The notes below the pieces were generated by a model. That model worked only from the letters and a program-made list of their open reading frames with translations, made no database searches and had not been told where the DNA came from. Below, piece after piece: positions 1,046 to 12,033 of a DNA stretch of 64,000 nt. Numbering within the stretch: the stretch's first letter is position 1; each line of letters opens with the position of its first letter. Position numbers and translations under genes: made by a program. The stretch is from Variovorax paradoxus (GTDB lineage Bacteria; Pseudomonadota; Gammaproteobacteria; Burkholderiales; Burkholderiaceae_C): contig NZ_CP102931.1 in assembly GCF_024734665.1 (NCBI RefSeq), positions 3,656,001 through 3,720,000 on the forward strand, read 5' to 3'.

Positions 1046-2181
1046 TGACTGACGAACGGCTCCACCTCGGCGCCGCATGGCGCGACACCGCGCTAGCCGT
1101 GCTGCGCGACAAGGGCGTGCTGCTGATCATGCTTCTCGCGCCCATCATCTACGGCTTCTTCTACCCGTGGCCCTATGGCACGCAGGCCGTGACGCGCGTG
1201 CCGGTGGCAGTGGTCGACCAGGACCACACCGCGCTGTCGCGGCAGATCGCGCGCTTCGCGCTGGCCAATCCGCGGCTCGACGTGCGCATGGTCACGGGCG
1301 ATGTGCACGAGGCGCAGCAGGCGCTGTGGCGCGGCGACATCGAAGGCTATGCGCTGCTGCCGGCCGACCTCAAGCGCGACGTGCTGCGCGGCACCTCGGC
1401 TGTCGTCACCATCGAAGGCAACGGCGCCTATGCGCTGCTGAACAAGGCGGTGCTGTATGGCTTCTCGGAGGCTGTGGGCACGGTGTCGGCGGGGGTCGAG
1501 ATCCGCAAGCTGCAGGCCGGCGGCCAGAGCGCGATTCAAGCCGCGCGTAGCCGCAGTCCGCTCAACACGCAGCTGGTCGCTCTGTTCAACCCGACCGAGG
1601 GCTATGGCAGCTACGTGGTGCCGGCGGTGGCACTGCTGATCCTGCAGCAGACGCTGCTGATGGGCGTGGCGATGCTGGCTGGCACCTGGGCCGAGGCGGG
1701 GCGGCTGCGGGCCTCGATGGGAGCCTGGCTGGGGCGGCTGGGGGCTCTCTCGGCGTTCGGCTTTCTGAGCGGGCTCTTCTACTTCGGCTGGGTTTTCTTC
1801 TTGCAGGATTACCCGCGCGGAGGGAATCCGCTCGGTGCGCTGGTGCTGCTCGCGTTCTACGTGCCGGCGATCTGTACGCTGGGCCTGTTGCTGGGCTGCT
1901 GGTTCCGCGACCGCGAGCGGGCTTTGCAGGTGCTGCTGTTCACCGCCCTGCCAATGGCCTTTCTCTCGGGCTTCTCGTGGCCCGTGGAGGCCTTGCCGGG
2001 GCCGCTGCAGGCGCTGCGCTGGCTCTTCCCGAGCACGGCTGGCATCCAGGCATCGCTGCGGCTCAACCAGATGGGCGCGCCACTGCATGACGTGCTGCCC
2101 TACCTCGGCGTGCTGCTGTCGCTGACTCTCGCGGGGCTGTTGACGCTCTGGCTCGCGGCAACCCCGCCGAAGCGCGTCTAG
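1045..2181 (+). CDS. ABC-2 type exporter permease, second subunit
   Basis: 378-residue inner-membrane permease, paralogue of the upstream gene. A first TM lies near residues 17-35 (GVLLIMLLAPIIYGFF), then a periplasmic domain starting VPVAVVDQDHTALSRQI, then five or six hydrophobic helices from about residue 190. The ATG at 1045 overlaps the upstream stop. The 3' end overlaps the convergent TetR gene by four bases (2178-2181), so a shared or absent terminator is expected. Likely partner of the upstream permease in one exporter. The convergent TetR gene could regulate it, but the operators seen lie on the other side of the TetR gene, so this is uncertain. Confidence 0.85.
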   Translation: MTDERLHLGAAWRDTALAVLRDKGVLLIMLLAPIIYGFFYPWPYGTQAVTRVPVAVVDQDHTALSRQIARFALANPRLDVRMVTGDVHEAQQALWRGDIEGYALLPADLKRDVLRGTSAVVTIEGNGAYALLNKAVLYGFSEAVGTVSAGVEIRKLQAGGQSAIQAARSRSPLNTQLVALFNPTEGYGSYVVPAVALLILQQTLLMGVAMLAGTWAEAGRLRASMGAWLGRLGALSAFGFLSGLFYFGWVFFLQDYPRGGNPLGALVLLAFYVPAICTLGLLLGCWFRDRERALQVLLFTALPMAFLSGFSWPVEALPGPLQALRWLFPSTAGIQASLRLNQMGAPLHDVLPYLGVLLSLTLAGLLTLWLAATPPKRV

Positions 2182-2816
2182 CGCTGGCTCTCGGCCGCCA
2201 CGGCGCGCACCAGCCGCGTCGCGGGCACTACCAGCTCGCGCAGGTCGCCCGCACGGTCCTGCTCGATGGCCTGCAGCACCAATTCGTTGATGCCGCCGAC
2301 CACGGTCATTGCCATCTCGCTCGTCAGGTGCACGGCGGGGCCATCCGCGCCGTCGCTGCTGTTGATCGCCACCTGGATGAAGTTGGCGATCTCGTCGTTC
2401 ACCCGGCGCCGCACCACCAGGCCCGGCATGCCGAGCCCCAGGATCTCGACGAAGAGCGTGCGCAGCAGCACCGGGTCTTGCGCGAGGTAATCGAAGTACG
2501 CAGTCATGGCCTGCTCGACCTGCGCATGCCAGGGCTGCACCGGGTCGAAGGCCTCGCTCACCGCCTGCAGCGCGAGCCGGCTGGCGGTTTCGTAGAGCGC
2601 GATCAGGCACTCGGTCTTGGTGCTGAAGTGCTCGTAGAAGGTACGACGCGACACTGCAGCCTCGCGCACGATGTCGGCAATGGTTGTCTCGGCGTAGCCC
2701 TTGGCTGCCACGGCATGCGCCATGCCCTGCAGCAGACGCTTGTAGTGCTCGCTCCCTGGGCCCTCGGCGGACTTGGAAGGGGCTGCTTTTTCGATGGTTT
2801 CGCTCATGAACGGCAC
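2178..2816 (-). CDS. TetR/AcrR family transcriptional regulator
   Basis: 212-residue one-component regulator. An N-terminal helix-turn-helix at about residues 25-70 reads KGYAETTIADIVREAAVSR followed by RTFYEHFSTKTECL, the classical TetR signature; the C-terminal ligand-binding domain is helical. Starts at 2816 or three codons downstream (MSET, 2807) are both possible. The divergent intergenic region holds two identical GGTAC-N6-GTACC inverted repeats, the best candidates for its operators, so it probably represses itself and the divergent hydrolase gene. It is convergent with the exporter permeases. Ligand unknown; the neighbouring hydrolase suggests a fatty or aromatic small molecule, but that is a guess. 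Confidence 0.88.
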   Translation of the reverse strand: MPFMSETIEKAAPSKSAEGPGSEHYKRLLQGMAHAVAAKGYAETTIADIVREAAVSRRTFYEHFSTKTECLIALYETASRLALQAVSEAFDPVQPWHAQVEQAMTAYFDYLAQDPVLLRTLFVEILGLGMPGLVVRRRVNDEIANFIQVAINSSDGADGPAVHLTSEMAMTVVGGINELVLQAIEQDRAGDLRELVVPATRLVRAVAAESQR

Positions 2817-2934: not shown

Positions 2935-3777
2935 ATGACCGATCTCGTTGTCCGCCGCCTTCTGATCGACCTGCAACCGCCCTTTGCCCGCAACTGGTGT
3001 GGCGGCGATGCATTCTCGACCGCTTTCTTCAATGCCCTGTCGATGAGTTTCCCTTTCGGCGAGCAGTTCTTCATCGACGCGGTGCGCGACGCCGTCGCCA
3101 CGCTACCCCCCGAGGTGCAGAAAAAGCACAAGGCCGACGTGCGCGGCTTCATCGGACAGGAAGCCACGCACCGGCGTATTCATTCGCTCTTCAACAACCA
3201 TCTGGAAAGCCAGGGCCTGGTCGACGGCTGGACGGCGCGCGCCAGCAAGCGCATGGCCCTGATGGAAGAAGCCGACCCGCGCCACGCGCTGGCTGTGACG
3301 GCGGCCACCGAGCATTTCACGGCGATGTTCGCCGAGTGGCTGCTGGCGCACCCGCAGATCCTTGACGGCGCTGAGCCTCGGCTGCGCACCATGTGGCTGT
3401 GGCACAGCGCCGAGGAACTGGAACACAAGAGCGTGGCCTTCGACGTCTACCGGGCCGCGGGTGGCTCTGACGAATGGCGCACGCGCTGGTTCCGCCGCGT
3501 GACGATGATGTTCCTGGGCGACCTGATGCACCAGACCATCGACAACCTGCGCCACGAAAAGCAACTGTGGAAATGGTCGACCTGGAAGAGCGCCGCGCGC
3601 ATCCTGCTGAGCCGCGACGGCCTGCTGCGCGGCAACCTGGCCGGCTGGCGCAGCTACCTGCGGGCGGACTTCCACCCGATGCAGCAGGACAGCAGCCTGT
3701 CGGAGCGCTGGCTGGCGGACAACCGCGCGCAGTACACGCCGGTGGGCGCGGCGCCTGAAGCGGCCGCTGCCGGCTGA
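2935..3777 (+). CDS. Predicted metal-dependent hydrolase (PF10118-like)
   Basis: 280-residue cytoplasmic protein resembling the predicted metal-dependent hydrolase family PF10118. Visible conserved features are the N-terminal FPFGEQFFIDAVRD segment, RGFIGQEATHRRIH (about residues 75-90), ATEHFTAMFAEWLL and MWLWHSAEELEHKSVAFDVY (about 150-170), a set of Glu and His residues on helices that looks like a di-metal helical bundle. The gene is divergent from the TetR regulator across a 118-bp region with two operator-like repeats, so it is probably the main target of that repressor. Substrate is not known for the family. Confidence 0.75.
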   Translation: MTDLVVRRLLIDLQPPFARNWCGGDAFSTAFFNALSMSFPFGEQFFIDAVRDAVATLPPEVQKKHKADVRGFIGQEATHRRIHSLFNNHLESQGLVDGWTARASKRMALMEEADPRHALAVTAATEHFTAMFAEWLLAHPQILDGAEPRLRTMWLWHSAEELEHKSVAFDVYRAAGGSDEWRTRWFRRVTMMFLGDLMHQTIDNLRHEKQLWKWSTWKSAARILLSRDGLLRGNLAGWRSYLRADFHPMQQDSSLSERWLADNRAQYTPVGAAPEAAAAG

Positions 3778-4631: not shown

Positions 4632-4862
4632 CTATTCGAGGGATTCGTCGAGCGCCTTGCAGGAAGGCGCGCACACGGTCTGGGACTTGCCCAGCACCTG
4701 GCGGGTACGCAGCTGCGAGCGTACGCGGTGCTTGCCGCACATGAAGCACGACATGGTCGCGCCGCTGAACGACGCCGAGGCGCGGAACGGCGAACCCGGC
4801 GTCTTGGACTTGTAACGCAGCCCATCCGCCACCACTGCCGTCTTCACTTCACCCTTCGCCAT
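4632..4862 (-). CDS. Small zinc-ribbon-like protein, 76 aa
   Basis: 76-residue basic protein of unknown function. Four cysteines form a CX2C-X21-CX3C pattern (C39, C42, C64, C68), which looks like a small zinc ribbon, preceded by a Ser/Ala/Gly-rich segment. It starts 22 bp after the stop of the 108-aa gene, so it is probably the last gene of the long minus-strand operon that begins near 11335. Whether it takes part in the lipid pathway cannot be told from sequence; it may be a small nucleic-acid-binding or regulatory protein. Confidence 0.6.
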   Translation of the reverse strand: MAKGEVKTAVVADGLRYKSKTPGSPFRASASFSGATMSCFMCGKHRVRSQLRTRQVLGKSQTVCAPSCKALDESLE

Positions 4863-4884
4863 GCGTCTTGTCCTTGCTGTTCAG

Positions 4885-5211
4885 TTATGCACTGCGCATT
4901 GCGCGTGCAATGGCTTCCCGTGCGCTGATTTCAGCGGCCAGGGAAACGTCCAACGCCGAGCGGCAAAGCCCGGCATGCTTGTAATTGAGGTTCTCGTAAA
5001 CCTCGGCCGCGGCCGGATAGGCATCGAGCAGGCGGCCTAGTTCGGCGCCCTGCTCGACGTCCTCGAACTCATGCACGAGGTGCTCGACCACGGAGCGGTA
5101 CTGCTCTGCGCCTACTGGCACAGGGCTGTGCTCAAGCTTTTCCAGCAGTTGTGCCAGCACGTGGGTCACTGCCAGATCGGTCTTGGGAGACGGATTATCG
5201 GTCGTGTTCAT
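4885..5211 (-). CDS. Hypothetical helical protein, 108 aa
   Basis: Not recognised. The start is MNTTDNPSPK at 5211; an ATG three codons upstream (5220) is an alternative. It is predicted to be all-helical and acidic, with heptad-like stretches (HVLAQLLEKLEHSP; VVEHLVHEFEDVEQ) and a C-terminal helix rich in Ala/Arg (SLAAEISAREAIARAMRSA). No signal peptide or TM. It sits 26 bp after the 303-aa gene and 22 bp before the zinc-ribbon gene, so it is probably cotranscribed with the lipid operon. Confidence 0.6.
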   Translation of the reverse strand: MNTTDNPSPKTDLAVTHVLAQLLEKLEHSPVPVGAEQYRSVVEHLVHEFEDVEQGAELGRLLDAYPAAAEVYENLNYKHAGLCRSALDVSLAAEISAREAIARAMRSA

Positions 5212-5237
5212 GGTTTCCATCTGGGGGCAGCATACGC

Positions 5238-6149
5238 CTATGCAAGTGGCTGCTCGTATAGGGATGTCTCCGGCTCCCCCGCCTTTTGCGCCGCCTGCAT
5301 CCGCTGGAGGAGGCTGTGCAGCATCTCGGTGGACAGCCCGTGGATCACCAGCCGGTGCCCCGCCCGCAGGGTCGACAGGGGCACCAGCGGGTGCTTGTTG
5401 TTGACCAGGATCAGGTGCTCGGGCGCATTCAGGAGCGTCGCCGTGTAGATGCCGATGGTTTCGTCCAGCTGCAAAGAATTGGCCGCGCGCCAGAAGTCGT
5501 TGTCCGTAAGCATCAGTTGATAGAGCGGCGTGAACAGCTCGATGGCGCTCTGCAGGTCGAGAAAATTGAGCCTGCCCTGGGGCATGTCTTCCAGCCGCAG
5601 CCCCGGCTCCCGGATCATCGAAAAATCGACCTTCTCCGCCTTGCACAGCGCCACGCCCTTGTCGCGCAGTGCCTTGTTCAACCGGATCACGAAGTTGAAG
5701 AGGTTCAGGTCATGCTTCAGGAACATCTCGTCCCTCAGGGCGTCGATGTCGGCCGGCTCCAGCGGGTTGGTGGCCACCGGAGCCGGCGAATTCCGCCCGA
5801 TGAAAGCCAGCACCTGCGAGCCCAGGTGAAAGTGCCGCAGGATCAGCCAGTTGGCCTCCGGCGACACAAAGCGCTTCAGCCCCCAGGCCAGAAACCGGTG
5901 CAGCAGCATCGAATGCGACCAGTTGCGCGGCACGAACACCTTCACGATCTGGATCAGGATGATCGTCAGCCGCGCGATCGGCCGCAGAAACGGCAGCAGG
6001 TATTGCCGCGAACCCGAACTCGAATCGGCCAGCCACGCCGCCTTGACGTTGTCGGGCAGCGGCGTGCTCTGGTCGAGGTACAGCGCGAGCCAGGGGCTGG
6101 GGTCGCGCTCGTCGTGCGCCTGCGTCAGGAAATCAGGTGTTCGATCCAT
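5238..6149 (-). CDS. Conserved hypothetical protein of the lipid operon, 303 aa (DUF6999-like)
   Basis: 303-residue protein, function unknown; it resembles what I remember as DUF6999, which I cannot verify. One strongly hydrophobic stretch near residues 50-75 (LPFLRPIARLTIILIQIVKV) suggests membrane association. His and acidic residues cluster on predicted helices: SPEANWLILRHFHLGS (about 98-113), MFLKHDLNLFNFVIRLNK (about 142-159) and LMLTDNDFWRAANS (about 213-226), which could be a metal site. Its start lies 17 bp inside the end of the ketoacyl synthase fusion gene, so it is translationally coupled and probably acts in the same pathway, perhaps as an oxidase or acyl-handling protein. That role is inferred from context only. 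Confidence 0.75.
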   Translation of the reverse strand: MDRTPDFLTQAHDERDPSPWLALYLDQSTPLPDNVKAAWLADSSSGSRQYLLPFLRPIARLTIILIQIVKVFVPRNWSHSMLLHRFLAWGLKRFVSPEANWLILRHFHLGSQVLAFIGRNSPAPVATNPLEPADIDALRDEMFLKHDLNLFNFVIRLNKALRDKGVALCKAEKVDFSMIREPGLRLEDMPQGRLNFLDLQSAIELFTPLYQLMLTDNDFWRAANSLQLDETIGIYTATLLNAPEHLILVNNKHPLVPLSTLRAGHRLVIHGLSTEMLHSLLQRMQAAQKAGEPETSLYEQPLA

Positions 6150-8049
6150 GGGGCATACGCTCCGTGATGTGCTGGAACTGCATCAGGTACAAGGCCGCAG
6201 TGTGGCGCGCGGTGTCTGTGATCTGGCGGGCGGCGCGCGCCTGCCCTTCCACGGCCATCACCATCTCGACCGCCGTGAGCCAGCGGCTCAGGTGGTGCTC
6301 GTCGTTGTGGCCGTGGTACTCGAGAAAACGGAAGGCATCGGGTGGCAGCTTCAGGCTGGCTTTGAGCAGCGGCAACAGCGCCGGCACGATGCGCTGGCCC
6401 GTGCCCTCGATGATGTAGATCGCACCCAGCAGGCCGATCGGGTCGCGCGTGGCGGCCAGGCCGTGCAGATAGGCGTTGAGCGCCTCGCCGCCGGGGTTGC
6501 GGCGCAGGTCTTCGATGCGCTCCACCGTACCGCCCGCCTTGCGGTAATCACTGAAAAGGATGTTGAAGTCGTTCTGCTCCTCGCCCGCGTGCACGCCGAT
6601 CAGCGAGGCCAGCACCTGGTACGGCTCGCTCAGCGAGGCCGCGCCTTCGCGCATCCACAGGCTGCCCTCTCGCACCTGCGGCACCCATTGCTCCATCCAG
6701 TTCAGGTAGTCGGGCACGGCAAAGCGGCGCTCGCGGATCTGGCGGATCAGCGGCGTGCGCCAGACGCGCGAGCGGTAGTCGTGCCAGATGGCGGCCAGTT
6801 CGGTGAGCAAGGCGCCGAGTCCTTCGGGCGCGGCAGTCGGGTCATGCGGGGGCGCAATGACGAAATCGTCGTCAGGCACAGCCGCCGCACGGGGCGCCAC
6901 GACCACCGGCGCCGCATCGACCGCCTCGACTTCGAGCAGCATGTAGGCCGCCATGAAGCGCCCCGACTCCGGCACGTAGCAGAAGATCTGCTCGCCGGGC
7001 TTCAGCGTCTTGGTGTGCAAAAACTCAGCCAGCATCACCAGGATCGACGCCGCCCCGGTGTTGCCGCGCCACGCGAGGTTGCTCCACCAGCGCTCGCGCG
7101 GAATCGACAGGTCGGCCTTCGCCATCAGGTCCTCGACCACCGGGATGAATTTCTCCGACGAGTAATGGCACAGGAAGTGATCGACCCGCTTCGGATCGAC
7201 CCAGCCGTCACGCACCAGCCCCGCGTACTCGTGGATGCCGATGTCGAACAGATGCGGCAGCAGGCGGATGTCCTGCCGCAGCGACAAGGCACCCGCCGCT
7301 TCGGCCTCGGCCCAGGAGCCGAAGTCGAGGTGGCCGCGCGCGCGGTCTTCGGTCAGGCCCAGTTGCATGCAGACCGGGTAGTCGCCCGAGAACGCGCGTT
7401 GATGCACCCACTTCAGCTTCAGGCGCAGCCCCGGCGCACCAGCCAGCGCGGGCGTGCCATCGGACAGCAGCAGGGCACCCGCGCCATCCGACAGCATCCA
7501 GCGCAGGAAGTGCGAGTCGAAGTCGGTTTCATAGCCGCGCGCCGCGAAGCGCGAACGTTTGAAGAGGCGCGACGGCATCTCGCTCGCCACCGCCATCGCC
7601 GAGCGGTGGGCGCCCAGCTCGATGCCCTGCGCGGCAGTCTGGATCGCCGACACGCCCGCCGCGCAGATGCCGTGCACCGAATGCGTTTCCATCGGCTGAG
7701 CCGCCAGCTCGCCCTGGATCATGTTGGCGAAGCCCGGCATCAGCGTGTCGCCGCCTGAGGAGCCGCTGGCCAGCAGCGACACGCGCGACAGCTCCGCCCC
7801 ACCCCGCCGCAGGCAATCGCGGATCGCGCCGGCCGCCAGTTGCGCGTTGGTGTGCTGCGTCACGCCTTCCGCGTCGATGGCGTAGTGCCGCGTGAGGATG
7901 CCGTTCTCCGCCAGGATGCGCCGCTTGATGCGCTCCGACATGCGGTTGAGCGGCGCGATGTACGCGTCCATGCGATCGTTGGGAATGGGCTCGCCCGGCA
8001 TGAAGTAGCCGGCGCTTTCGAGGTAGACGCGTTGGAATGAGACAGGCAT
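6133..8049 (-). CDS. Fusion: ketoacyl-ACP synthase III-like + heme-oxygenase-like diiron domain
   Basis: 638 residues in two domains. Residues 1 to about 375 are a FabH-like thiolase-fold condensing enzyme with an intact Cys129 (HGICAAGVSA), His295 (FLCHYSSEK) and Asn330 (WRGNTGAAS) triad, so it should carry out acyl loading and decarboxylating or non-decarboxylating Claisen chemistry. A Val/Ala/Pro/Asp-rich linker (about 376-410) leads to a helical C-terminal domain of the heme-oxygenase-like diiron oxidase type (iron-containing redox enzyme family): HAGEEQ (487-492), IIEGTGQRI with E548, and the H-x3-D-x2-H motif H579/D583/H586 in EYHGHNDEHH. Ordinary FabH is about 320 aa, so the fusion doubles it. 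The start lies 3 bp after the desaturase stop and the end overlaps the next gene by 17 bp. Product unknown; a modified fatty acyl or hydrocarbon is the natural guess. Confidence 0.85.
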   Translation of the reverse strand: MPVSFQRVYLESAGYFMPGEPIPNDRMDAYIAPLNRMSERIKRRILAENGILTRHYAIDAEGVTQHTNAQLAAGAIRDCLRRGGAELSRVSLLASGSSGGDTLMPGFANMIQGELAAQPMETHSVHGICAAGVSAIQTAAQGIELGAHRSAMAVASEMPSRLFKRSRFAARGYETDFDSHFLRWMLSDGAGALLLSDGTPALAGAPGLRLKLKWVHQRAFSGDYPVCMQLGLTEDRARGHLDFGSWAEAEAAGALSLRQDIRLLPHLFDIGIHEYAGLVRDGWVDPKRVDHFLCHYSSEKFIPVVEDLMAKADLSIPRERWWSNLAWRGNTGAASILVMLAEFLHTKTLKPGEQIFCYVPESGRFMAAYMLLEVEAVDAAPVVVAPRAAAVPDDDFVIAPPHDPTAAPEGLGALLTELAAIWHDYRSRVWRTPLIRQIRERRFAVPDYLNWMEQWVPQVREGSLWMREGAASLSEPYQVLASLIGVHAGEEQNDFNILFSDYRKAGGTVERIEDLRRNPGGEALNAYLHGLAATRDPIGLLGAIYIIEGTGQRIVPALLPLLKASLKLPPDAFRFLEYHGHNDEHHLSRWLTAVEMVMAVEGQARAARQITDTARHTAALYLMQFQHITERMPHGSNT

Positions 8050-8052
8050 GGT

Positions 8053-8997
8053 TCAGGTGATGGATGAATCGGGAGGCATCAGCGAGCGGCTGCGAAAACG
8101 CGGCCACACGGTCCCCAGCACGAACACGCGCACCATGTACGGCACCAGCCCGCCCTCGTTGAGCGCAGGATCCACCCGCGCGCGGTAACGCGTGCGATGC
8201 AGATGCGTGAGCTCGGACCAATGGGCATGCGGGTTCTCGTGGTGTGCGGTGTGCAGGCCGATGTTGAACAGCAAGGGGTTCACCAGCCCCTCGAAATTGC
8301 GGGCGTAGTTCAGCTGGCTACCCGAGGTATCGCCCGGCGCCTCCTTGCGCACGGGTTTCCGGCCGTCGGCATGCGCGTGCTGAAGGTAGTTGGTCGCCAG
8401 CAACCAGTGCAAGCCATGCAGCTGCGGCACGATCACGAACAGCAGGGCCTTGCGCCAATCGAGCACCAGCAGAGCCGTCCAGCTCACCAGCCACAGCACG
8501 TACTGCGCCATGCAGTAGCGCCACGCGCCGCGCCGGTGCTGCCGCAGCCGCGCGAGCCACGCGAAGAACACTGGCATCAGCACCCACACGGCCTGGAACG
8601 GATGCAGCAGATAGCCCCGCAGATGGTTGGTGTCGCCGCCGAAGCGGTAGGTGCGCGCCACGTCCTTCGGCCCGTGCCGGTGGCGATGGTGGTTGGCCAC
8701 GTGCGCGGGCCAGAACACGAAAGTCGGGTGCCCCTGCAGCAGCGTGATCCAGAAATCAGTCAGCCGGTTCATGCGCCGTCCGCGCCACATGCGCAGGTGC
8801 ACGTGGTTGTGATGGATCACGCCGACACCGAGCGTCAGGAACAGCATCAGCCCGTACAGCAGCGCGTTGAAGCCGTGTAGCCATTGCCACGCCGCCAGCG
8901 CAGGCAAGGCGGCGAGATAGGCAAGGCTCTGCCAGTCGCGCCAGTGGCGCAGCCCCGGCAGGCGACGGCTTGCGTCATCAGGCCGCGGTCGCGCCAT
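8053..8997 (-). CDS. Membrane fatty acid desaturase
   Basis: 314-residue integral membrane diiron desaturase. The three histidine boxes are visible: HHNHVH (about residues 62-67), HVANHHRHRH (about 98-107) and HTAHHENPH (about 247-255), with hydrophobic hairpins between (LAALPALAAWQWLHGF; YGLMLFLTLGVGVI; ALLFVIVPQLHGLHWLL). Start chosen at MARPRPDDAS (8997), giving a 20-bp overlap with the upstream sterol-desaturase gene; a longer frame from 9036 is less likely. It should introduce a double bond or hydroxyl into an acyl chain in the inner membrane. Its position directly before the ketoacyl synthase fusion suggests it acts on the same acyl product. Confidence 0.87.
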   Translation of the reverse strand: MARPRPDDASRRLPGLRHWRDWQSLAYLAALPALAAWQWLHGFNALLYGLMLFLTLGVGVIHHNHVHLRMWRGRRMNRLTDFWITLLQGHPTFVFWPAHVANHHRHRHGPKDVARTYRFGGDTNHLRGYLLHPFQAVWVLMPVFFAWLARLRQHRRGAWRYCMAQYVLWLVSWTALLVLDWRKALLFVIVPQLHGLHWLLATNYLQHAHADGRKPVRKEAPGDTSGSQLNYARNFEGLVNPLLFNIGLHTAHHENPHAHWSELTHLHRTRYRARVDPALNEGGLVPYMVRVFVLGTVWPRFRSRSLMPPDSSIT

Positions 8998-9751
8998 GCT
9001 TCTTTCGGAAAGCCTGAAGCACCGGCTCGGCCGCATCGGCCGCGATGCGCGTCCTGAAGAGCCGGTCCATGAACGTGAACTGGAAGCCGTAGTTGCCGTT
9101 GTGCACGGCGTGGTGCAAATGGTGGCGTCGACTCGCCGCGAACCAATGGCTGTACGACACGCCCGTGAAGAAGTCGTAGTTCGAATGCCCGATGCAGTTG
9201 AAGAACAGGCTGAACACCGGCACCGCCGCCAGCGCCCAGAAGCTGAAGTCGTGCACCACCATCGGCAGCAGGATCACGTTGCCGAGCATCAGCGCCTCGA
9301 CGGGATGAAAGCTGTAGGTCGCCCAAGGCGTGGTCACGAACGAGCGGTGATGCGGCCCGTGAAAGCGCCGCAGCCAGCGCGTGTGCAGCAGCCGGTGGTT
9401 GATCCAGAAATGCACGTCGTTCCAGAACGCGAGCACGAGGATCTCGACCGCGATCTGCCGCCACCCCGCATCGCCGTCGAGCCGCGCCCAGCCCAGCTGC
9501 AGCAGCCCCCACGGAAACACCATGCCCAGCCCGAAGATCAGCACCGACACTCCCGATTGCCCCAGCTCGCGCCGCAGTTGCCCCGGCTGCAGCGGCCGCG
9601 GATCGAGTTCGCGCCCAATGCCCAGCGCCGGCAGCACCCGCTTCGTCAGCAGCCACGTGATGCAGCCGAAGCCGAGATAGATGCCGCCGAAAAAAAGCAC
9701 GCCCCACAGCATGACCTGCAGGGCGGACAACGAGGTGAAGGTCTGCGCCAT
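8978..9751 (-). CDS. Sterol desaturase / fatty acid hydroxylase family protein
   Basis: 257-residue integral membrane non-heme diiron enzyme of the fatty acid hydroxylase superfamily. His motifs: HFWINHRLLH (about 114-123), FHGPHH (about 130-135) and RHHLHH (about 209-214), plus HSNYDF between. Four hydrophobic stretches are visible (first at residues 13-36). Family members hydroxylate or desaturate sterols, carotenoids, sphingolipids or alkylglycerols; bacteria with this gene usually act on acyl or isoprenoid lipids. The gene begins 9 bp after the PLD gene and overlaps the desaturase gene by 20 bp, so it is inside the same operon. Confidence 0.87.
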   Translation of the reverse strand: MAQTFTSLSALQVMLWGVLFFGGIYLGFGCITWLLTKRVLPALGIGRELDPRPLQPGQLRRELGQSGVSVLIFGLGMVFPWGLLQLGWARLDGDAGWRQIAVEILVLAFWNDVHFWINHRLLHTRWLRRFHGPHHRSFVTTPWATYSFHPVEALMLGNVILLPMVVHDFSFWALAAVPVFSLFFNCIGHSNYDFFTGVSYSHWFAASRRHHLHHAVHNGNYGFQFTFMDRLFRTRIAADAAEPVLQAFRKKHGATAA

Positions 9752-9760
9752 CCCCCGAGG

Positions 9761-11335
9761 CTACAACAGCATCTCGGGAACGATCGGCGCTATGAGCATG
9801 TTGTAGAAGCGCTGGAAGAAGCTCGACTCCGGCTCCGAGGTCAGGATCACTTCTTTCTCGCCGTCGTTCGTCAGCCATTGCAGCGTGCCGGTGTCCTTGG
9901 CCAGCCGCAGCCGGTAAGAGTTCTGCAGCTTGCTGATGTTGATGACGCGCATCATCTCGCGCGCCAGCTGCGGGCTGTCGACCACCAGCCCCATCTCGGT
10001 GTTCTGGCTGGCCGAGCGCGGGTCGAGGTTCATCGAGCCGATGAAGATGCGTGTCTTGTCGATGGCCGCAGTCTTGGCATGCAGCCGCCCGAGCGACTTG
10101 CCGAACATGCCGAAGCGCTCGCCCGCGCTGGTGCGCTGCGGGCTCAGTTCGTACAGGTCGGCGCCGCCTTGCAGCAACCGCTCGCGGTAGCGCGCGTAGC
10201 CGGTGTGCACCAGCGGCTCGTCGTTGGCGGCCAGCGAATTGGTCAGCAGCGTGAGCTTGACCTTGCGCCGGGTCAGGTCCTCGAAGGCTTCCATGCCGCG
10301 CTCGCCCGGCACCAGGTACGGCGAGGTCATGTCGACCTCGGTCTTGGCGTCGAGCAGCAGCGCCCAGACCTTCATCGTCACGCTGGTGGCGATGGCCTCG
10401 TCGGCGGTCATGGTCGCGGGCTTGGTGGGCGGATCGGCGATGGCGCGGGCCTCTCCCCACAGCAGGCCCATGCGGCCGCCGTCGAGCTCCTCGGCAATGG
10501 GGCCGTAGCCGAGGATGTCCGACGGCGGCAGCACGATCTTCGGCGGCGGCGCGGCCATGCCCACCCAGCTGTCGAAATCGGCGCCGGTCGGCTTGCGGCC
10601 GCCATCGCCCGTCACGATGTCGGCAATAGGCCAGACCTGCTCGCTGTTCCAGTAGGCGTCGAAGATCGATTCGAGCTGCGGCACCACCTTGCCGACCACC
10701 AGCGCGTCCATGTCGATGAAGTTCTGCGCCTCGCTCAGCACGAAATACTCGTCGGCGATGTTGCGCCCGCCCACCACAGCCATGGCACCGTCGGCAATGA
10801 AGAGCTTGTTGTGCATGCGGTGGTTGAGCCGCGGAATCTCCCACGGCGACGCCGCAAAGCGCGACAGGAAGCCGTTGCGCCCGCAGCAGAACGGGTTGAA
10901 CAGGCGCACGTCGACGTTGGGCGTCTCGGACAGCGCCAGCAGCAACTGCTGGCTCTTCACGGTGTACAGGTCGTCCACCAGCACCCGCACCTTCACGCCT
11001 CGGCCCGCGGCCTCGCGCAGCGTGCGCAGCAGCAGGCGGCCGACGGCGTCGTTCTCGAGCTGGTAGTACTGCACCACCAGCGAGCGCTGGGCCCGCTGGG
11101 CCAGCTGTATGCGCGCATCGAGCGAGTACACGCCCAGCGGCATCAGCCGGAAGCCCGAGTGCTCGTCCGGCGGTGTGGAGGCGGCGACGATCTTCGCCAG
11201 CGTGGTCGACGGGTCGGCCGAAGCGGCGAATTCGGCGGGCCGCTCCCGCGCCGGCGGCAGCGAGCCGCAGGCGCCGAGTGTCGCTATCAGGACGCTCGCG
11301 AACGCGATGCGCAGAAACGAGAGCCAAGTGTTCAT
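9761..11335 (-). CDS. Phospholipase D / cardiolipin synthase C-like lipoprotein
   Basis: 524 residues with two HKD motifs: HNKLFIADGAMAVVGGRN and HAKTAAIDKTRIFIGSMN, the PLD active-site pair, similar to ClsC/YmdC. The start is set at MNTWLSFLRIAF (11335), which gives a clean lipoprotein signal peptide ending LGAC (Cys23); the frame also opens 18 codons further upstream (11389), but that would bury the signal. The enzyme should therefore be anchored in the envelope and perform phosphatidyl transfer. It is the first gene of the tight minus-strand operon with two desaturase-type enzymes and the ketoacyl synthase fusion, so it may attach or exchange the head group of an unusual lipid; simple cardiolipin synthesis is the conservative alternative. 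Confidence 0.85.
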   Translation of the reverse strand: MNTWLSFLRIAFASVLIATLGACGSLPPARERPAEFAASADPSTTLAKIVAASTPPDEHSGFRLMPLGVYSLDARIQLAQRAQRSLVVQYYQLENDAVGRLLLRTLREAAGRGVKVRVLVDDLYTVKSQQLLLALSETPNVDVRLFNPFCCGRNGFLSRFAASPWEIPRLNHRMHNKLFIADGAMAVVGGRNIADEYFVLSEAQNFIDMDALVVGKVVPQLESIFDAYWNSEQVWPIADIVTGDGGRKPTGADFDSWVGMAAPPPKIVLPPSDILGYGPIAEELDGGRMGLLWGEARAIADPPTKPATMTADEAIATSVTMKVWALLLDAKTEVDMTSPYLVPGERGMEAFEDLTRRKVKLTLLTNSLAANDEPLVHTGYARYRERLLQGGADLYELSPQRTSAGERFGMFGKSLGRLHAKTAAIDKTRIFIGSMNLDPRSASQNTEMGLVVDSPQLAREMMRVINISKLQNSYRLRLAKDTGTLQWLTNDGEKEVILTSEPESSFFQRFYNMLIAPIVPEMLL

Positions 11336-11478
11336 GATGCTTCGCCCATTGCTGGTGCTTCCCGCCGTTTTTTCAGTTGTTGTGTTCAATACGCCGGCCA
11401 GCCCGCACCGGTTTCAGGACGGCCCATTCCGGGGATGCTCAAGCCTAGAATTCGCTCCACATCGCTCGGAGTTACATC

Positions 11479-12033
11479 ATGGCTCGTTCGCACCTCCATC
11501 GCATCGCATGGATGACGATTTTTGCAGCCCTTGCCCACCCCGCCTGGGCGGCCCTGGACATCGGCGACCCCGTGCCCAAGTTCACCGCCAACGCCGCCCT
11601 GGGCGGCAAGACCTTCCGCTACTCGCTGGCCGACGCGCTCGCCAAGGGACCGGTGGTGTTGTACTTCTTTCCTGCGGCAGATTCCAACGACTGCTCCATA
11701 GAGGCTCACGCCTTCGCCGAGGCCGTCGACCAGTTCGCCGCGCTGGGCGCCACCGTGATCGGTGTCTCGGCGGACGACATAGGTACCCTGTCGAAGTTCT
11801 CGGTCAAGTCCTGCCAGAGCCGCTTTCCGGTGGCGTCGGACGAGAACAAGACCGTGATCCAAGGTTTCGACGCGCTGATGCAGACGCGGCCGGACTTCGC
11901 CAACCGCCTGTCTTACGTAATCTCACCGGACGGCAAGGTCGCCTACTACTACCAGAACCTGAATCCGGACAAGCACGTGGAGCGCATGTTGAATGCCGTG
12001 AAGGCGCTGCCGAAAACCACCGCCGCCAAGTAG
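11479..12033 (+). CDS. Periplasmic peroxiredoxin (BCP/PrxQ-like)
   Basis: 184 residues with a Sec signal peptide (MARSHLHRIAWMTIFAALAH, cleavage after AWA near residue 24). The thioredoxin-fold peroxidatic motif is FPAADSNDC (Cys72), where the usual Thr of PxxxTxxC is Ser. A second cysteine, Cys112 (VKSCQSRF), lies 40 residues on and fits the alpha-3 position of the resolving cysteine in one PrxQ subclass. It reduces hydroperoxides, here in the periplasm. Divergent from the lipid operon across 143 bp. If that operon oxidises unsaturated lipids, a periplasmic lipid-peroxide scavenger next door would make sense, but this is inference. Confidence 0.83.
   Translation: MARSHLHRIAWMTIFAALAHPAWAALDIGDPVPKFTANAALGGKTFRYSLADALAKGPVVLYFFPAADSNDCSIEAHAFAEAVDQFAALGATVIGVSADDIGTLSKFSVKSCQSRFPVASDENKTVIQGFDALMQTRPDFANRLSYVISPDGKVAYYYQNLNPDKHVERMLNAVKALPKTTAAK

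Follow-up and report, generated by a model that had tools for sequence, protein, structure and literature searches.

A conserved ketosynthase, diiron oxidase and DUF6999 gene set in Variovorax and other Proteobacteria: a candidate module for an oxidized two-chain alkyl metabolite

Ketosynthases (KSs) of the kind exemplified by the dialkylcyclohexanedione synthases, OleA and PpyS join two acyl chains to give cyclohexanediones, pyrones or beta-keto acids, as set out in part of PMC4578411. Heme-oxygenase-like diiron oxidases (HDOs) usually hold their metals through three His and three carboxylate ligands, according to a section of a 2026 review in whose main text a term search finds none of 'ketosynthase', 'ketoacyl' and 'polyketide' (PMC13108848). 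The two kinds of enzyme meet in a 64,000-nucleotide stretch of the Variovorax paradoxus genome (NZ_CP102931.1, positions 3,656,001 to 3,720,000), hereafter called the window, in whose numbering gene positions are given. There, a single minus-strand open reading frame of 638 amino acids (6133-8049) encodes a FabH-like KS (residues 1 to about 380; ACP_syn_III_C, 33.4 bits) fused to an HDO domain (about 400 to 638; Haem_oxygenas_2, 39.3 bits against a gathering threshold of 28.9). On the same strand it is followed by the gene for a 303-residue DUF6999 protein (5238-6149; PF22523, 437.7 bits) and preceded by genes for a membrane fatty acid desaturase (8053-8997) and for a 257-residue membrane oxygenase of the fatty-acid-hydroxylase/sterol-desaturase superfamily (FAH; 8978-9751). 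The fusion is a single-copy gene in this genome, and nearly all of its named top matches are from Variovorax. An earlier note, made from the letters alone (the original prediction), had described five packed minus-strand genes around a ketoacyl synthase-diiron oxidase fusion; all of the open reading frames lie where it placed them, Pfam backs each family including both domains of the fusion, and its spacing values (gaps of 9 and 3 bp, overlaps of 20 and 17 bp) hold exactly provided that the desaturase begins with the ATG at 8997, which gives the 20-bp overlap with FAH, an earlier ATG being present at 9036. That note knew of no characterized pathway with this gene set, and we likewise found no description of a KS-HDO-DUF6999 set in the literature searched; the enzymes are of known kinds, and the combination and the KS group appear to be new, at least to us.

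When homologous loci are compared, the boundaries of the gene set become clear. A profile search of genome contigs with the DUF6999 alignment returned 460 encoding stretches, and the 80 best-scoring, a selection biased towards close relatives of the window, were compared: 42 from Variovorax and 38 from elsewhere (Achromobacter, 26; Bordetella, 5; Pseudorhodoferax, 2; Pigmentiphaga; a Rhodoferax and a Gammaproteobacteria metagenome-assembled genome; and 2 other Burkholderiales). The KS-to-HDO and HDO-to-DUF6999 junctions are each kept in 78 of the 80 loci, the desaturase-to-KS junction in 77 and the FAH-to-desaturase junction in 76, so the arrangement is non-random, and the full order FAH, desaturase, KS-HDO, DUF6999 recurs in Variovorax, Pseudorhodoferax, Achromobacter, Bordetella and Pigmentiphaga. 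Four loci depart from it: two in which the module is split (L070 and L073), one on a 3.3-kb contig (L079), and one that has no FAH at the locus (L081). Collecting homologous loci, the check proposed with the original prediction, thus bears out a conserved and uncharacterized set of oxidative genes, led by the KS, whose members occur together in several genera.

The same comparison removes the gene that had been taken as the first of a five-gene operon, a minus-strand gene for a PLD-superfamily lipoprotein of 524 amino acids (9761-11335; PLDc_2, 121.9 bits; lipobox-like ...LIATLGACGS, by eye). That such an operon might modify an envelope (phospho)lipid finds support in the 9-bp spacing between the PLD and FAH genes, in the 36 of 42 Variovorax loci where the two genes adjoin, and in the membrane-enzyme families to which FAH and the desaturase belong. 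However, the PLD-FAH junction is found in none of the 38 other loci, which places the lipoprotein outside the module, and its gene stays instead with that of a divergent AhpC/TSA peroxiredoxin (11479-12033, plus strand; PF00578, 86.4 bits). Of the 42 Variovorax loci, 39 have this divergent pair, and in three loci (L068, L072 and L074) it stands at the opposite side of the module, indicating that the PLD gene belongs with the peroxiredoxin; the two look like a separate two-gene unit in Variovorax (9761-12033). Both active-site motifs of the PLD protein are present (two stretches each of PF00614 and PF13091). Identity as a cardiolipin synthase was considered and rejected: the two best models score 93.3 bits against a cut-off of 290 and 79.8 against 281, so far below that the phosphatidyltransferase activity originally proposed is unsupported. 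A five-gene phospholipid operon is hence the least probable of the explanations we weighed, and very improbable, and we are confident that KS, HDO and DUF6999 form one functional unit with the PLD protein outside it. Nor do the two small minus-strand genes behind DUF6999, which the original prediction had also noted, extend the module. They encode a 109-residue protein without a significant Pfam family (4885-5214) and a 76-residue protein with CxxC...C cysteines and sub-threshold metal-binding matches only (4632-4862); the 109-residue gene adjoins DUF6999 in 36 of 42 Variovorax loci and in none of the 38 other loci, the 76-residue gene follows it in 38 of 42 Variovorax loci, and every small-gene junction is from Variovorax. 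The two make up a conserved Variovorax pair, which in L072 and L074 lies about 2 kb to the other side of the module.

The smallest recurring core across the wider set of loci consists of KS, HDO and DUF6999. The Burkholderiales loci and G019, a genome of the window's class from another order, encode KS and HDO as a single chain, and all three are separate neighboring genes in five alphaproteobacterial loci (about 19 kb) and G956, in G077 and G818 (Gammaproteobacteria), and on plasmid pTHAF3_a of Pseudoalteromonas sp. THAF3 (NZ_CP045419), where they are annotated as beta-ketoacyl-ACP synthase III, iron-containing redox enzyme and hypothetical protein. FAH and the desaturase are found in most Burkholderiales loci that were read. 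Neither adjoins the core in the alphaproteobacterial, G019, G077 and G818 loci (tblastn with the window proteins at thresholds of 1e-8 and 1e-3, and Pfam of selected flanks) or among the annotated neighbors in THAF3, and G019 carries the fusion and DUF6999 without either of them. We read the two membrane enzymes, judging from these gene neighborhoods, as a Burkholderiales add-on to the core. DUF6999 was found in 6 of 240 alphaproteobacterial genomes making up one draw, and HDO in the same 6 (HDO of G679 as query, E<=1e-20); the class of G679 itself is taken from DUF6999 relatives in Sphingomonas, Sphingobium and Novosphingobium, where the family is known by protein record with its neighbors unread. 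The genome-wide HDO search was made in this draw, and the draw of 274 genomes from the window's class compares fusion matches with DUF6999; the genome draws overlap. DUF6999 occurs in 6 of the 274: three with the fusion, G077 with split genes, G052 with KS and DUF6999 fragments on one small contig, and G074. The other 15 KS-matching genomes of that draw have no DUF6999, and the 16 StlD/DarB-type KS loci (these 15 and a paralogue in the window's genome) show no HDO within flanks of about 1.5 kb per side (less in L008).

DUF6999 is patchily distributed, being present in 6 of 200 genomes drawn from the family, 9 of 398 from the phylum and 65 of 101 from the genus (a few with fragments only). Matches for both DUF6999 and the HDO family also occur in Caulobacter vibrioides, a control genome, and a protein search returned 3,075 DUF6999-related proteins, all of the 120 listed carrying PF22523. 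In a flank scan limited to selected genes, the surroundings are unremarkable, vary by lineage and include histidine biosynthesis, an Na+/H+ antiporter, DHDPS, a molybdopterin oxidoreductase, a chaperonin, an RND pump, SelO and a beta-lactamase-fold protein. In G679 the trio is followed (L127:5697-9098) by a 1133-residue protein combining MFS, acyltransferase and AMP-binding parts, then by a 424-residue protein without a family; the former would fit lipid metabolism and was not seen in the other loci. A gene for a protein of 185-188 residues without a Pfam match precedes the KS both in THAF3 (L153:5621-6178) and in G818 (L128:11941-12507), and might be a fourth member of the module as it occurs in Gammaproteobacteria.

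A natural REARRANGEMENT bears on the cohesion of the set. In the Variovorax loci L070 and L073, FAH abuts DUF6999, and the desaturase and fusion genes are gone from the locus; searching the whole of each genome locates a single fusion, on a different contig, with the desaturase before it. The surroundings of the two new sites are alike (89-96% identical pieces across most of 18 kb), and because they are shared, the relocation was probably a single event. All four frames (FAH, desaturase, fusion and DUF6999) remain open despite their separation, as predicted if the products share a function in trans.

Our preferred reading of the locus, held tentatively and with a little less than even confidence, is that of a biosynthetic module in which the KS condenses two acyl thioesters, the HDO carries out an O2-dependent tailoring step together with DUF6999, and FAH and the desaturase modify the chains in Burkholderiales. 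The KS has an intact catalytic triad: Cys129, His295 and Asn330 are present in 43 of 43 aligned KSs and in 87 of 87 fusion rows (86 called frames out of 89 expected loci, L072, L082 and L129 having no frame called as a fusion, and the window; 84 distinct). Its best PDB match is StlD (5gk0, E 1.9e-59), which also holds Foldseek ranks 1-6, and in the Foldseek list it is 34-35% identical to StlD and 16-19% to OleA. Since its closest solved relative is thus a natural-product ketosynthase, the relationship suggests a small metabolite of alkyl-ring or pyrone-like type no less than a phospholipid.

In a strict StlD/DarB-like ring pathway, the KS would make a 2,5-dialkylcyclohexane-1,3-dione and the HDO would take the place of the aromatase, giving a dialkylresorcinol or an oxidized quinone-like lipid to be decorated by FAH and the desaturase. 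The primacy of StlD in sequence and fold speaks for this proposal, as do the scores of 315.5 bits with the StlD/DarB model PRK06816 and 254.6 bits with the DarB model (NCBIfam), but these lie under cut-offs of 450 and 550, respectively. In a 43-row tree, moreover, a 100/99 branch stands between the 26 HDO-linked KSs and 17 StlD/DarB-type rows (the 15 class matches, the paralogue in the window's genome, and StlD, the only characterized one); the tree is midpoint-rooted, so that 'clade' here depends on the root. The fusion KSs form a single group (100/100), and the residue preceding the catalytic His is Pro in 17 of 17 StlD/DarB-type rows, while 24 of the 26 module KSs have Cys there. Membership of the module KS in the StlD/DarB group was rejected on its scores below both cut-offs and its place on the opposite side of the branch, and we consider the strict ring pathway unlikely. 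A hydrocarbon or ketone pathway, with OleA-like condensation to a beta-keto acid and cleavage or decarboxylation by an UndA-like HDO to an alkene, ketone or aldehyde, would draw on the OleA structures among the Foldseek matches and on the C-C bond cleavage of fatty acids by UndA-type HDOs described in part of PMC13108848. We hold it to be more doubtful still, as OleA is so much less similar than StlD, no ole or und partner genes occur among the selected genes scanned in the flanks, and FAH and the desaturase fit a retained lipid better than a volatile.

The paralogue just mentioned is a second, unfused KS of StlD/DarB type in a different cluster of the window's genome (C1:2164532-2168650, L002; region L133). 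A 349-residue protein without a family precedes it, followed by BtrH_N/DUF4872, ABC transporter genes and a beta-ketoacyl synthase, and G155 (L134) has homologues of four genes of this cluster.

The active-site columns of the oxidase half of the fusion are conserved as well. H487, E491, D494, E522, E548, Y578, H579, D583 and H586 are invariant in all 87 fusion rows (84 distinct) and in the same columns of 17 fused and separate HDOs. The separate HDOs of G679, G077 and G956 match Haem_oxygenas_2 with 38.0-41.4 bits; that of Pseudoalteromonas has no match to this family at E<=0.1. Searched against the PDB, the HDO profile has a sole match below E 0.1, the heme-oxygenase-fold structure 3dde (function unassigned; E 7e-14). 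Residues similar to E491, E548, H579, D583 and H586 occupy the aligned positions of 3dde, and H487 could be the third His ligand, or the site could differ from that of other HDOs. The domain is modeled as helices with block pLDDT values of 72-94 over residues 401-630, and the 50 rows listed for the fusion by Foldseek are all KS-type matches. A second Haem_oxygenas_2 protein of the window's genome (C1:1385682-1386194, L158; 147.6 bits) is unlinked to the module.

A role in stress protection was weighed as well. DtpC, an HDO-domain protein of Acinetobacter baumannii, protects dried cells and requires its predicted metal ligands to do so (part of PMC13232832), and by analogy with the role proposed for DtpC, HDO and DUF6999 might counter oxidative damage, the KS being secondary; the peroxiredoxin adjoining the module in Variovorax would be in keeping with this. 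Several observations run the other way: most of the loci read encode KS and HDO as a single chain, the KS catalytic triad is intact, the peroxiredoxin lies outside the conserved unit, and dtpC is described as co-transcribed with katE in a report whose main text does not contain the word 'ketoacyl' (PMC13232832, seen in part). Stress protection is therefore, in our estimation, very unlikely to be what the module is for.

In the third core protein, DUF6999, R105, H106, H146, D147, D198, N224, D229, H270 and E275 are invariant across 25 diverse rows (226 aligned rows correspond to 213 distinct sequences). Its model is all-helical (mean pLDDT 89.8), with H106, H146, D147, D198, D229, H270 and E275 placed in different helices or just at their borders. 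Foldseek gives the model no PDB match at E<=0.001, hhalign sees no similarity to the HDO (probability 0.4% over 25 columns), and the name DUF6999 was not encountered in the literature searched. A bolder form of the biosynthetic reading would make KS, HDO and DUF6999 an undescribed three-protein machine that produces a new class of oxidized two-chain lipid or alkyl-ring metabolite across Proteobacteria, in which DUF6999 would represent a helical metalloenzyme of new fold whose direct substrate is what KS-HDO makes; as a whole we rate this as rather improbable. Of the membrane enzymes, FAH scores 78.2 bits against a cut-off of 31 with PF04116 and keeps 13 His in 81-83 of the 83 members aligned (11 of these His without exception), and the desaturase scores 81.4 against 29.7 with PF00487 and keeps 19 His in 52-53 of 53, both alignments comprising only members found by gene calling; neither protein has a PDB sequence match at E<=0.1.

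Taken together as a biosynthetic module, these proteins would act as follows. The KS would load a fatty acyl group on Cys129 and join it to a second (beta-keto)acyl thioester, yielding a two-chain beta-diketo, cyclohexanedione-like or pyrone-like intermediate. The HDO on the same chain would then use O2 at its dimetal site to oxidize this reactive intermediate, whether by ring oxidation or aromatization, C-C cleavage, or hydroxylation. DUF6999, helical and possibly membrane-associated, would be a partner in the same step or a further metal-dependent enzyme, and in Burkholderiales the membrane hydroxylase and desaturase would modify the alkyl chain or chains. The predicted end product is an oxidized two-chain alkyl metabolite or lipid, and an envelope lipid is possible.

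Several points weigh against this reading. No member of the module has so far been assigned a product or an activity, and no acyl carrier protein, thioesterase or electron-transfer gene recurs alongside the core. Because the module KSs fall outside the StlD/DarB clade, the type of condensation need not carry over, and Glu114, which is Glu or Asp in the fusions, is replaced by Ala or Arg in 5 of the 9 separate KSs. The position of Asp494 is His in 3dde, so the dimetal chemistry of the HDO may be altered, and metal binding by DUF6999 is suggested by residue conservation alone. Linkage also has its exceptions: in G074, which has no KS match, DUF6999 adjoins an open reading frame resembling an IS3-type transposase (by eye); one Variovorax locus (L081) is without FAH; and in G768 only a 41%-identical desaturase was detected, with no FAH.

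Elsewhere in the window, a gene for a PF10118 'predicted metal-dependent hydrolase' (2935-3777, plus strand) is divergent from a TetR-like open reading frame (2178-2816, minus strand; by eye).

The module is common in soil and host-associated bacteria, among them Variovorax, Achromobacter and Bordetella, and if its products belong to one shared class of molecule, that class would be a missing metabolite of much-studied bacteria. Were the biosynthetic reading true, it would also give DUF6999 a function, add a ketosynthase-coupled reaction to those of the heme-oxygenase-like oxidases, and put right the label 'StlD/DarB family' attached to some module proteins.

The module can be set beside the closest described systems component by component. 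The DUF6999 protein is a member of PF22523, a family without an assigned function, and FAH and the desaturase resemble the PF04116 and PF00487 membrane enzymes, both scoring above cut-off with conserved His boxes. With the HDOs UndA, BesC, SznF, CADD and DtpC the oxidase domain shares a Haem_oxygenas_2 match above cut-off, and with 3dde the columns of an E...E...H-x3-D-x2-H pattern; it differs in being fused or adjacent to a KS and in having Asp494 where 3dde has His. OleA and PpyS are, like the module KS, FabH-like, and join two chains (part of PMC4578411), and OleA appears in its fold list; the module differs in its low identity to OleA and in having no olefin or pyrone partner genes among the scanned flanks. 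Closest are the StlD/DarB KSs, the 2,5-dialkylcyclohexane-1,3-dione synthases of stilbene and dialkylresorcinol pathways, which share with the module KS the thiolase fold and the Cys/His/Asn triad, whereas the module KS has Cys in place of Pro before the catalytic His and is linked to an HDO and to DUF6999.

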